Shown here: in pieces, positions 3,693-27,170 of the stretch
Numbering within the stretch: position 1 is the stretch's first letter
How the letters are laid out: the number at the start of each line of letters is the position of its first letter
Source: a virus
Virus record (IMG/VR): IMGVR_UViG_3300021437_000054
Span: 1 to 37,181 of that record
Direction: 5' to 3' (one strand)
DNA length: 37,181 bases
Notes under the pieces: generated by a model
The model's input: the letters and a program-made list of their open reading frames with translations, nothing else
Database searches by the model: none
What the model was told of the DNA's origin: nothing
Made by a program: the position numbers and the translations under genes

Positions 3693-5083
3693 TATTTCAA
3701 TCCCCGGCGTGCCATTTCTGCTGCGAATGCGGACGGATCAGGCATGCCCTGTACTTGTGGCAGTGGGTCAATAGTCATGTCTTGGGCCACATTCTTAAGC
3801 GCAGGATTTTGCTGCCAGCGCGATAGAACTTGGCTTCCCTTGGCGTGCGTAGCGAGTGCAACACGCTCAGACAGATCGGCAACACGGCGCAAGTTTTCAG
3901 GCGTATCACTAATTTGACCGCCAATAGCAGAATTCAAGAATTCACGATCCTTATCGGTGAATCCATTGCCACCACCCAAGCCAGAGGATTTAATGCCGCC
4001 AAGCGTGAGCTTACTAAGACCTGACATAAGCTCTTGCGTGCTTGCAGCTTTTCCTGGGCCTACCATGCCGGTAGTCTCCATTAACTTTTGCAAAGCAAGT
4101 CGTGTATCGGCGACGCTTCCAGTAATAGCGCCCCTATCAATTGCAGATTTAATACTACGTGCATTTGCAACCATTTCAGGCGCTGACCGGGCAGCATCAA
4201 CAGCCGCCAATGCATCCTTAGCCAATCCTGCGCCAACATCCTGATTGAACTTATTTTCAGGACCGGCAACGCTGACAGACATATTAGCCGCGCCTGCACG
4301 CTTCTGATCAATGATGAATTGTTGCAGCGAGCCTTTATAGCCTTGATTCTTGGCGTATTCATACTCAGAAATAGCTTGTGGCTGATCAAACTGCTTAGGC
4401 ACCACTGCACCAGTCTTCTGACCAGTAAGCTCACCCATCAACTGTCCATTGACGTTAATCAGCTTCTCCTTACCAAGGTTAGGAGCTTCTGCCATTTGCT
4501 TGGCAAATGTAGGATCACCGCCAGCAAGTTGGAACTTCTGAATATCACCGCCAGTAGCATTCCACAAATCAGACTGTGCTTTGCGCTGCTGCATGGCTTG
4601 CTGGAGCTTCGCTTGCGACTCAGCGTTAGTGATCATGCCCTGAATGCCAAACTGCTGGAGCATCGGGTTTTGCGACTGGGCAGCAATATTGAATGCCTCA
4701 GACGGGTTCGGCGCAACTGCTTTGGTCTGTGCCGGAGTTGGCGCAAAGCCTTCGTAATCACCAGAGCTTGCAATGGTTTCTGCGGGTTTCCCAGTCAGTG
4801 CTTCTGACATTCTCTGCATATCAGATGCACCTTGTGTGCGCTGATTTTCGTACATAGCCTTTTGCTGGCCTTCAACATCCTGCATACCCTTCATGCCAAG
4901 ATAGCTCTGCAAGCCCTTGGCAAGGTGCTGTGTCCAGCTTGGAGCCACATAAATACCGCTTACAGTCTGGCCTTCAACGGGTTGCTGGCCTTGCTGCAAA
5001 AGAGACTCGGCCATCCTCTGACGCCTAGCGAGTGCCAGAACATCAGGGTTGTTAGGGTCTTGAGTGATGAATGGGTTAGCCAT
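3692..5083 (-). CDS. Internal virion / DNA ejection protein (P22 gp20-like by position and size)
   Basis: 463 residues, rich in Gln, Ala, Met and Gly and probably mostly helical, with no transmembrane segment and no enzyme motif. The N-terminal region (about 1-120) has Gln-rich sequence (RMAESLLQQGQQPVEGQ). A central Gln-rich stretch (about 145-180, ESQAKLQQAMQQRKAQ) is coiled-coil prone. The C-terminal third has the conserved-looking SGLGGGNGFTDKDREFLNSA, where a helix predicted to follow a glycine turn is typical of phage ejection proteins. It is the middle member of the three-gene cassette. Function is inferred from synteny with P22-type phages rather than recognisable homology. It could be another structural protein. 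Confidence 0.65.
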   Translation of the reverse strand: MANPFITQDPNNPDVLALARRQRMAESLLQQGQQPVEGQTVSGIYVAPSWTQHLAKGLQSYLGMKGMQDVEGQQKAMYENQRTQGASDMQRMSEALTGKPAETIASSGDYEGFAPTPAQTKAVAPNPSEAFNIAAQSQNPMLQQFGIQGMITNAESQAKLQQAMQQRKAQSDLWNATGGDIQKFQLAGGDPTFAKQMAEAPNLGKEKLINVNGQLMGELTGQKTGAVVPKQFDQPQAISEYEYAKNQGYKGSLQQFIIDQKRAGAANMSVSVAGPENKFNQDVGAGLAKDALAAVDAARSAPEMVANARSIKSAIDRGAITGSVADTRLALQKLMETTGMVGPGKAASTQELMSGLSKLTLGGIKSSGLGGGNGFTDKDREFLNSAIGGQISDTPENLRRVADLSERVALATHAKGSQVLSRWQQNPALKNVAQDMTIDPLPQVQGMPDPSAFAAEMARRGLK

Positions 5084-23653: not shown

Positions 23654-24031
23654 ATGAACATTGAAGAACTGACTTTGAAGCAAATCCGTGAGATTGCTGC
23701 GCTTGTGAATGGCACTGTTGTGCAGCCTGCACAGGCCAATGCGCCACATCCATTTATTGGGAAATACGTAATTGCCCGATGCTATTCGGCAGGCGTGCAT
23801 GCCGGTGAGGTGGTGAGTGTCGATGGAGAATCAGCCATTTTGAAAGATAGCCGCCGCTTGTGGTCTTGGAAAGCTAACGACGGGGTTGCATTGTCTGGTG
23901 TTGCCCAGACCGGTTTGCAAAGTGGATGCAAGATTGATGTGGTCAATCCTGAGATTTATCTCACTGGAGTATGCGAACTTATTCCATGCAGCAAAACTGC
24001 TAAGGAGTCTATCAATGGCTTCAAAAAATAA
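23654..24031 (+). CDS. DUF6948-like phage protein
   Basis: 125 residues. The central segment HPFIGKYVIARCYSAGVHAG, followed by EVVSVDGESAILKDSRRLWS and WKANDGVALSGVAQTGL, matches the pattern I associate with the uncharacterised DUF6948 family of phage early regions: a beta-barrel-like domain with a conserved tryptophan-rich turn. The N-terminus (MNIEELTLKQIREIAALVNG) is an amphipathic helix. No catalytic motif; role unknown. The next ATG (24015) lies inside its last codons, overlapping by 17 bases. Confidence 0.7.
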   Translation: MNIEELTLKQIREIAALVNGTVVQPAQANAPHPFIGKYVIARCYSAGVHAGEVVSVDGESAILKDSRRLWSWKANDGVALSGVAQTGLQSGCKIDVVNPEIYLTGVCELIPCSKTAKESINGFKK

Positions 24032-24230
24032 AGTATTTACCGAAAGCTACGGCGACGGCTCCGGCTACGGCTACGGCGACGGCTACGGCTCCGGCTCCGG
24101 CTACGGCTCCGGCTACGGCTCCGGCTCCGGCTCCGGCTCCGGCTACGGCTACGGCTCCGGCTACGGCTACGGCGACGGCTACGGCTTCGGCTCCGGCTAC
24201 GGCTACGGCTCCGGCTCAGGCGACGGCTGA
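24015..24230 (+). CDS. Gly-Tyr-Gly-Ser low-complexity protein, interrupted by TGA
   Basis: 71 residues: MASKNKVFTESYGDGSGYGY, then only G alternating with Y, S, D and one F to the end. The TGA at 24228-24230 lies inside the repeat. The same frame continues for 13 more sense codons of the same repeat (with GSGDGYGDGYGLN) to a TAA at 24270-24272, immediately beside the next gene's ribosome binding site (aaagga). The ancestral gene probably ended there, and a single C-to-G change in a TCA codon (such a codon lies just upstream) would explain the TGA. Readthrough is an alternative. The product should be disordered and aromatic-rich. Similar GSGYG-repeat proteins occur in other phages upstream of ATP-binding proteins, from memory. 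Function unknown. Confidence 0.7.
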   Translation: MASKNKVFTESYGDGSGYGYGDGYGSGSGYGSGYGSGSGSGSGYGYGSGYGYGDGYGFGSGYGYGSGSGDG

Positions 24231-24263
24231 GGCTCCGGCGACGGCTACGGGGACGGCTACGGA
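24045..24263 (+). repeat. Hexamer-type repeat tract (ggctac / ggctcc / ggcgac)
   Basis: About 219 bases in which every second codon is a glycine (nearly always GGC) and the other is TAC, TCC, GAC or a one-base variant. It encodes the Gly-Tyr-Gly-Ser protein and its apparent extension beyond the TGA. The antisense strand reads as an Arg/Ser-rich open frame because of the repeat alone. Slippage or recombination is likely to alter its length. Confidence 0.85.
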
Positions 24264-24281
24264 TTAAACTAAAGGAAAAAC

Positions 24282-24956
24282 ATGGCAATCAACCTAAAAT
24301 CAACCGGCAGCATGTCTGCCAATGGCGTGAAGCTGCTTGTATACGGCCAAGCTGGTGCGGGCAAGACTTCGCTTATCAAGTCTTTACCCCAGCCCATTGT
24401 GCTTAGTGCAGAGGGCGGTCTGCTTTCTATCCAGGATGCTGACTTGCCTTACATTGAGATTACAAGCATGGCTGATCTGAAAGAGGCATACGAATGGGTT
24501 ACAGGCGAGCAGGGCAGTAACTTCAAGTCCGTGGCGCTGGATAGCATCAGCGAGATAGCCGAAGTAGTGCTAAACCATGAAAAGAAGGTCAACAAAGACC
24601 CTCGGGCAGCTTACGGCGCTATGCAAGAGCAGATGGCCGACATTATCCGGGCTTTCCGTGATCTGCCTGGCAAGCATGTTTACATGAGTGCCAAGCTGGA
24701 AAAGACGCAGGATGAAATGGGACGTGTGCTGTATGCGCCTAGCATGCCGGGGAATAAAACCGGTCAATCCTTGCCCTACTTCTTTGATGAGGTGCTAGCC
24801 CTGCGCGTAGAGAAGGATGCGGAAGGCAACACACAACGTGCCCTGATGTGCGATACCGATGGCCTGTGGCTTGCTAAAGACCGTAGCGGAAAGCTGGGGG
24901 CATGGGAAGCGCCGGATCTGGGGGAAATCATTGCCAAGATTGGGGGTGTGAAGTGA
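24282..24956 (+). CDS. Sak4-like single-strand annealing recombinase / ATPase
   Basis: 224 residues, AAA-24 type. Walker A is VYGQAGAGKTSL (about residues 20-31), and Walker B is near NFKSVALDSISEIAEVV (aspartate about 87). Further conserved segments are RAFRDLPGKHVYMSAKLEKT and APSMPGNKTGQSLPYFFDEV. This is the layout of Sak4, a minimal RecA-like recombinase of phages that cooperates with a single-strand binding protein. The nearby DUF669 gene could supply that partner. Expected role: recombination-dependent replication and repair of the phage genome. The ribosome site aaagga is shared with the TAA that ends the extended repeat frame. Confidence 0.85.
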   Translation: MAINLKSTGSMSANGVKLLVYGQAGAGKTSLIKSLPQPIVLSAEGGLLSIQDADLPYIEITSMADLKEAYEWVTGEQGSNFKSVALDSISEIAEVVLNHEKKVNKDPRAAYGAMQEQMADIIRAFRDLPGKHVYMSAKLEKTQDEMGRVLYAPSMPGNKTGQSLPYFFDEVLALRVEKDAEGNTQRALMCDTDGLWLAKDRSGKLGAWEAPDLGEIIAKIGGVK

Positions 24957-26002: not shown

Positions 26003-26485
26003 ATGGCATTTCTCACTGAATCATTCGACGTTGACAGCCTCCCCAAGTCTGAACGCAACTTTGACCCACTGCCCGATGGATGGTACACCGCTAGCATCAC
26101 TGGCGCTGAAATCAAGAAGACTAAAGCAGGCACTGGCGAATACATCGCTGTGCGCTATGACATCACTGGCCCCACGCATCAAGGCCGGGTGATCTTCGCT
26201 AATCTGAACATCAAGAATCCGAACCCAAAGGCGGAGGAGATTGGTAGAATGGAGCTTGGTAATTTAATGAGAGCGATAGGTTTATCTAGAGTGACGGATA
26301 CAGACCAGCTTATTGGCGGAACTTTAAGTATAAAAATCACCATTTCTAAATCTGAACAATACGGAGATGGGAATGAAGTGAAGGGTTATAAATCAGTAGC
26401 TGGGTCAGTAGCCATCTCTCCATCTGTATCAACAACGCCGGTTGCAGCAGCGAAATCTGCTCCTCCATGGGCAAATAGAAAGTAA
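26003..26485 (+). CDS. DUF669 single-strand DNA-binding-type protein
   Basis: 160 residues. The hallmark opening PLPDGWYTASITGAEIKKTK, then GTGEYIAVRYDITGPTHQGR and VIFANLNIKNPNPKAEEIGR, matches DUF669 proteins. These adopt an OB-like fold and are thought to act as phage single-strand binding proteins. The C-terminus (AAKSAPPWANRK) is a short tail that could recruit partners. From about base 26240 onward the DNA is noticeably more AT-rich than the first half, up to the start of the homing endonuclease, suggesting the 3' half was replaced. A good candidate partner for Sak4. Confidence 0.8.
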   Translation: MAFLTESFDVDSLPKSERNFDPLPDGWYTASITGAEIKKTKAGTGEYIAVRYDITGPTHQGRVIFANLNIKNPNPKAEEIGRMELGNLMRAIGLSRVTDTDQLIGGTLSIKITISKSEQYGDGNEVKGYKSVAGSVAISPSVSTTPVAAAKSAPPWANRK

Positions 26486-26492
26486 AAATCAA

Positions 26493-27170
26493 ATGGGCAT
26501 TTTGTATCAGTTGACGTTTTCTAATGGAAAAAAATACATTGGCATAACGGAAAATGAGTATATGAGTCGTAGGCTTGGACAGCATAGATACCAAGCTAAA
26601 CGAGGAAGCAAATTGCCCATTTATCTAGCTTGGTCAAAGTACGGAGAGCCTGCTATAGAAATTTTGCAACATCTTTTTGGTGATGCTTTGTACCAAGCAG
26701 AAATTGATGCAATCAAGCTCTACCGCACCATTGCACCAAATGGATACAACTTGCTTGATGGCGGACAAAAATCTCCTGCGCTTAACAAAGATGTTGCAAA
26801 AAAAATAAGTCAAGCGCAAAAAAAGAGATATGAAAATCCAGAGGAAAGAGAATTAGCTTCTTTAATGGCACGCAATCGAAGCCAAGAAACAAGGAAAAAA
26901 ATCTCTATTGCATTGACTGGAAAAAACTTAATCGATCAGACAAAAGAAAAAATAAGGCAGGCAAATTTTGGGAAAAAAGCAAATGAAGAAACACGAAAAA
27001 AAATGTCTCAGTCACATTCAGGAAAAAAATATTCAGAAGAAACGTTGAAAAAAATGAGACAAGCCGCAAAGCTTAGGATGCAATCCCCAGAAGCAAAGGC
27101 ACAGCTAAAAGCTGCAAGTCTTGCAGGCGGAATCGCCATGAAAAATAAGTCATCCAAAAAAATGCCCTAG
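26493..27170 (+). CDS. Free-standing GIY-YIG homing endonuclease with NUMOD-like repeats
   Basis: 225 residues from ATG at 26493. The GIY-YIG domain is at the N-terminus: MGILYQLTFSNGKKYIGITE (first motif relaxed to LYQ, second YIG at 15-17), catalytic arginine in SRRLGQH (27), glutamate about 70, and NGYNLLDGG (84-91). The C-terminal half is a series of basic DNA-binding modules (ARNRSQETRKKISIALTGKN, GKKYSEETLKKMRQAAKL) typical of NUMOD3. No clear ribosome site precedes it, and the DNA is rich in A tracts unlike neighbours, as expected of an invading gene. It probably nicks phage relatives lacking the gene and spreads by recombination. Confidence 0.9.
   Translation: MGILYQLTFSNGKKYIGITENEYMSRRLGQHRYQAKRGSKLPIYLAWSKYGEPAIEILQHLFGDALYQAEIDAIKLYRTIAPNGYNLLDGGQKSPALNKDVAKKISQAQKKRYENPEERELASLMARNRSQETRKKISIALTGKNLIDQTKEKIRQANFGKKANEETRKKMSQSHSGKKYSEETLKKMRQAAKLRMQSPEAKAQLKAASLAGGIAMKNKSSKKMP

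Follow-up and report, generated by a model that had tools for sequence, protein, structure and literature searches.

The window analysed here, a single contig of 37,181 nucleotides from a virus record (IMGVR_UViG_3300021437_000054), carries on its forward strand a short gene for a glycine-rich repeat protein that at present ends at a TGA codon within its own repeat. As terminated now, the gene spans positions 24015–24230 and encodes 71 residues (30 Gly, 14 Ser, 13 Tyr and 2 Phe among them), which consist of MASKNKVFTESY followed by a (G-X)n chain in which X is Tyr, Ser, Asp or Phe. The underlying DNA is a hexanucleotide array of the form GGC-NMC at 24046–24262, about 36 units long; Tandem Repeats Finder reports it as one array (period 6, 36 copies, 82 % matches, score 266), by far the strongest of the window. 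Since scores of other phage contigs carry the same gene, the array is not a product of chance. The protein shows both the low-complexity composition and the regular aromatic spacing that serve as a criterion for condensate-forming proteins.

The TGA (24228–24230) falls at an X position. Translation of 24015–24272 gives MASKNKVFTESYGDGSGYGYGDGYGSGSGYGSGYGSGSGSGSGYGYGSGYGYGDGYGFGSGYGYGSGSGDG*GSGDGYGDGYGLN* (asterisks marking the two stops), which confirms an earlier sequence-only reading of this DNA that had reported a repeat gene with an in-frame TGA and a repeat continuing beyond it to a TAA. Thirteen codons lie between the TGA and this TAA (24270–24272), which adjoins the Shine–Dalgarno sequence AAAGGA of the next gene. 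The segment 24231–24272, comprising the cut-off tail GSGDGYGDGYGLN and a probable ancestral stop, is homologous to the end of the corresponding gene in the contig L218 (contigs and records are given below as L numbers).

The same reading had recognized the repeat gene correctly but missed its pairing with the gene immediately upstream. That gene (23654–24031) encodes a 125-residue protein that is a clear member of the family DUF6948 (PF22253), scoring 98.7 bits over the whole domain (1–85), where the curated Pfam cut-off is 27 (E 2.2e-28). The Shine–Dalgarno sequence of the repeat gene, AAGGAG at 24002–24007, is situated within the DUF6948 coding sequence, in a block, AAGGAGTCTATNNATG, that is also present in close relatives, and the repeat gene begins before DUF6948 has ended, giving an overlap of 17 nt that is also found in L208, L209, L210 and L218–L226. 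Downstream is a gene for a Sak4-like ssDNA annealing protein (24282–24956; phrog_124, E 3.5e-58) with its own Shine–Dalgarno sequence at 24273–24276, followed in order by genes for an SSB, a homing endonuclease, a Cas4-type exonuclease and a helicase. The homing-endonuclease-like gene (26442–27170; phrog_314, E 4e-31) lies ahead of that for the Cas4-type exonuclease, and its sequence overlaps with the end of the SSB gene.

A two-gene phage cassette

When IMG/VR was searched with DUF6948, leaving the repeat unused, 78 relatives were found, of which 74 were examined. All 56 homologues with at least 200 nt of downstream sequence are adjoined by a (GX)n ORF, and in 12 of the remaining 18 the sequence runs into an array before the contig ends. 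Eighteen of the 74 contigs (L218–L291) stop in the array or close to it, within 200 nt of the DUF6948 gene; the array breaks short-read assemblies, and the gene is consequently under-sampled. A tblastn search with the repeat protein, run with the low-complexity filter on, gave no matches, and array contigs were gathered by DNA pattern instead, yielding 120 contigs with 79 assessable arrays (at least three different X residues being required). Directly upstream of these 79 arrays is DUF6948 in 46 cases, a family we designate A5 in 23 and neither in 10, so that 69 of 79 have one or the other. The A5 family (L095, L104, L168, L195 and others) is a divergent small protein of the form ..VVLDRGWVFVGDV..NA..R.WGTTKGLGEL.. 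found upstream of arrays in phages that have no DUF6948; comparison of the DUF6948 alignment (A1) with A5 by hhalign gives a probability of 80 % and an E-value of 1.4e-5.

The arrangement of the two genes is also conserved. Their overlap ranges from 8 to 17 nt and is mostly 8, 11, 14 or 17 nt, and a Shine–Dalgarno-like motif precedes the repeat start in 53 of 64 cases, a count flattered by taking the best of several starts, as against 14 % at random positions inside DUF6948. In L099 a single ORF, from position 4963 onward, contains both DUF6948 and the (GX)n array, and this fusion directly supports a functional link between them. Named records found through DUF6948, all of them with an array, are Pectobacterium phage Koroua, Vibrio phage IKEMa6-1 and Iodobacter phage PhiPLPE, and further such records come from Chlorobiaceae phage CV-1-33, Neisseria gonorrhoeae and Monoglobus. 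The N. gonorrhoeae record (NZ_CP119142.1, L214) is listed as a plasmid, is 2.17 Mb long and evidently represents the chromosome, with the cassette probably in a prophage. DUF6948 and the (G-[S/Y/D/N])n gene thus form a conserved and widespread two-gene phage cassette. It is apparently undescribed: nothing relevant on DUF6948, DUF7666 or phage Gly-rich repeats was found in the literature searched, Pfam gives no function for DUF6948, and neither the two genes nor the additional C-terminal domain described below are assigned one by Pfam, NCBIfam or PHROGs.

The position beside Sak4 is not a general feature. Among control loci anchored on Sak4, one of 86 has DUF6948 (L021, which also has the array), and none of the 84 Sak4 relatives that were scored has an array upstream, which indicates that the cassette moves independently of Sak4. 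Its neighbours (99 proteins) include helicases, DNA polymerase, RecE, RecT, Sak4, exonucleases and primase, but since terminases and a portal protein are found there too, an association with early DNA metabolism is only a tendency. DUF6948 was found in none of 369 sampled bacterial genomes with a query that does match viral records, a result that applies to this sample rather than to cells in general.

Some repeat genes run in frame into additional C-terminal domains, neither of which is present in the window. The first, a conserved domain of about 150 residues containing ..FAHG..WHHxLTGSC..GR.. (alignments A2 and A3), follows the array as WHHxLTGSCxxGR in L157, L170, L296–L301 and L215, and all seven loci of this type have a DUF6948 gene upstream. 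Its AlphaFold model is confident (pLDDT 94) and matches no fold in the PDB, the lowest Foldseek E-value being 0.3 and the highest VIA Z 4.9. The second, ..GxLHATxxPxxWxGxRWWxVALxGxV.., follows the array in L108, L160, L164, L179, L192 and L205; one copy of this type weakly resembles DUF7666, below the cut-off (E 0.03). The presence of a folded C-terminal domain in some members suggests that there the array is perhaps merely a linker. We note that the public annotations of L211 (3286–3531) and L216 (1505–2077) read the array in another frame (MAMAMALAMA..); for L211 the more probable gene is the GX frame, the start of which overlaps DUF6948. The PhiPLPE record (L210) lacks any annotation of the repeat gene.

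The in-frame TGA

The closest syntenic relative of the window at this locus is L218, in which the DUF6948 protein is 88 % identical and a Sak4 gene likewise directly follows the repeat gene. Its array is unbroken, with sense codons up to ..GDGEGSN and a TAA that aligns with the ..GDGYGLN and TAA of the window ahead of the Sak4 Shine–Dalgarno sequence. Among 126 array ORFs the repeat goes on past the first stop in two, those of the window and L172; in L172 the repeat beyond the stop belongs to a separate ORF that has a start of its own, which leaves the window alone as an interruption within the same gene. Because L218 is unbroken and no same-gene interruption occurs elsewhere among these ORFs, the TGA is private to the window phage, and this is the outcome of the comparison of repeat and stop position across related phages that the earlier reading had proposed. 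A decayed repeat remnant lies beyond the stop of L243, so that truncation is not absolutely unique to the window. Where an array ends three or fewer codons from a stop, the stop follows immediately upon the last Gly in 35 of 49 cases.

The best reading of the TGA is therefore a recent nonsense change, a suggestion of the sequence-only reading that is borne out by the sense codons leading to the homologous TAA in L218 and by the lack of interruption of any intact array elsewhere. A frame that is still open after the TGA is what would be expected of a recent mutation. The specific change from TCA to TGA that had been put forward is plausible, a TCA codon being present at 24216, but unproven. Taken as a private truncation, the change is probably harmless. 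The repeat proteins of relatives are 18–135 residues long, which makes the 71-residue product of the window ordinary, and since array length changes by in-frame units of 6 nt, dropping 13 residues out of 84 would be expected to have little effect. One possible consequence concerns the next gene: with the TGA as its end the repeat gene is separated from the Sak4 start by 51 nt, compared with 9 nt for the TAA, and any termination-coupled start of Sak4 might thereby be weakened.

That the TGA is instead a sequencing or assembly error seems rather unlikely. The repeat is hard to assemble, as the related contigs that stop in or near the array indicate, but the TGA is one substitution within an otherwise regular array and direct evidence of error is absent. 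Programmed readthrough, which would give a minority long form with an extension of 13 residues, had been offered as an alternative and is hardly credible: although the frame after the TGA is open, repeat-like and closed by a TAA beside the next Shine–Dalgarno sequence, a stop is conserved at this place neither in L218 nor in any other array examined, and the window alone has its own array interrupted. Reassignment of the TGA codon was also considered and rejected, since TGA ends 6 of the 23 long genes of the window and is thus a normal stop in this genome.

Array composition and the predicted fold of DUF6948

Across 55 arrays, Gly occupies 1793 of 1849 Gly positions (97 %), and the 1837 X codons of the same arrays specify Ser (750), Tyr (497), Asp (419, about 23 %), Asn (49), Phe (33), Ala (25) and little else. 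Ala is rare at X even though it is one base away from Ser (TCN) and Asp codons. Each array uses near-uniform synonymous codons, and the choice changes from one array to another: for Gly it is GGC in the window, GGG in L218 and GGT in L249 and L276, while Ser may be TCC, TCT, TCA (L276), AGC (L231) or AGT (L259). That the residues are kept while the codons switch shows selection on the protein. The near-identical contigs L268 and L269, and likewise L297 and L298, are separated by whole in-frame units, and with a six-base unit the length changes while the frame is kept. At the DNA level the arrays are thus turned over and homogenized, and their protein alphabet is maintained throughout. None of 54 arrays has a net positive charge, the median being −9 per 100 residues.

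The DUF6948 proteins are neutral to slightly basic and have invariant residues at R42, G47, G51, W70, W72 and G87. AlphaFold2, run on the family alignment, predicts with a mean pLDDT of 92 an N-terminal helix, strands and a short helix ahead of the last two strands. When this model was compared with the PDB using Foldseek, the best 50 rows were almost all Sm/LSm chains, with E-values of only 2e-3 to 1e-2 (best 2.3e-3), and with VIA-align all 50 rows were Sm/LSm (best Z 8.3, rmsd 2.0–2.2 over 64–67 residues); by the yardstick of the tool, Z scores of 7–8 are common even for models that have no true match, and no Foldseek E-value here fell below 1e-3. The DUF6948 profile matched no PDB sequence at E-values up to 1, which leaves room for a remote relationship to Sm proteins. 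The fold that these comparisons suggest, without proving it, is a small beta barrel of the Sm/LSm-like kind that has a helix at its N terminus. Both this predicted fold and the tie to (GX)n arrays are new observations for DUF6948.

Possible roles of the pair

In Escherichia coli Hfq, an acidic tip acts as a nucleic-acid mimic on the Sm rim and autoregulates RNA binding (PMC5606850), and the tail of Acinetobacter baumannii Hfq is built of GGFGGQ repeats, carries an acidic tip and is needed for function (PMC11617691). The cassette resembles Hfq and Sm proteins with low-complexity tails in that a predicted Sm-like barrel is linked to a disordered chain that is Gly-rich, aromatic and acidic. It differs in that the phage chain alternates strictly as Gly-X, that DUF6948 has no detected sequence similarity to solved Sm proteins, and that barrel and chain are separate genes in nearly all of the phages, being joined in one polypeptide, as in Hfq, in L099.

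By analogy, the first gene of the cassette would supply the small Sm/LSm-like barrel and the second, from its overlapping start, a disordered (Gly-X)n chain with X restricted to Ser, Tyr and Asp, joined in some cases by Asn, acting as a detached counterpart of the Gly-rich acidic tails of the Hfq type. The chain may bind the DUF6948 barrel and there compete with or organize nucleic acid, its tyrosines perhaps clustering the complex, and the pair would act in early phage DNA or RNA metabolism. The sequence-only reading had proposed that the repeat protein could condense or bind nucleic acid; for the nucleic-acid part of this idea, the predicted Sm-like fold of the partner provides a first and indirect support. 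To the explanation as a whole, that is, a conserved cassette of an Sm-like barrel with a detached disordered tail, carrying in this phage a private nonsense change near the end of the second gene, we give an even chance of being right. A bolder version, in which the barrel sits on phage nucleic acid and is condensed or regulated by a separate acidic Gly-Ser-Tyr-Asp chain of variable length, so that the two proteins constitute a minimal nucleic-acid granule, is possible but doubtful.

Other proteins of similar composition invite comparison. FUS is a low-complexity protein of the [G/S]Y[G/S] type, and the crystalline repeats of silk have Gly at every second residue. As in FUS and silk fibroin, Gly, Ser and Tyr dominate the phage chain and the repeat has no folded core; in contrast to both, the phage chain is very short and acidic, has an exact two-residue period derived from six-base units, and is phage-borne and paired with one specific small protein. 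The strict occurrence of Gly at alternate positions and the folded partner encoded just upstream would suit a silk-like chain, its Gly/Ser-Tyr alternation stacking strands into fibres or gels with DUF6948 as chaperone or anchor; the content of Asp at X disfavours stacked sheets, and we regard such a structure as unlikely. Equally unlikely, in our estimation, is a device for counter-defence or host takeover, in which an acidic decoy of variable length would titrate away a nucleic-acid-binding protein or a defence sensor of the host. The hypervariable length of the array, its never being basic and the phage-borne distribution of DUF6948 in the genomes sampled are all consistent with a decoy, yet a decoy by itself leaves the near-universal presence of DUF6948 as a partner unexplained. 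It is quite improbable that the array matters chiefly as DNA (as a recombination hotspot, replication origin or protein-binding site) with the protein incidental, for although arrays shift in length by whole units, are homogenized internally and in the window adjoin a recombination gene, the residues remain Gly with Ser, Tyr or Asp while the codons vary between phages, the start, Shine–Dalgarno sequence and near-fixed DUF6948 overlap are retained, and in some phages the array is in frame with a C-terminal domain.

The cassette occurs in phages and prophages from many environments, and it has escaped annotation because one half of it is of low complexity and is filtered by standard searches, some annotations moreover being in the wrong frame. 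The Ser/Tyr/Asp alphabet, strict despite the change of codons, would make the sequence rules of such chains directly testable. If DUF6948 is truly Sm-like and has a detached disordered partner, the cassette would provide a simple, swappable phage model for the tuning of Sm proteins by their tails.
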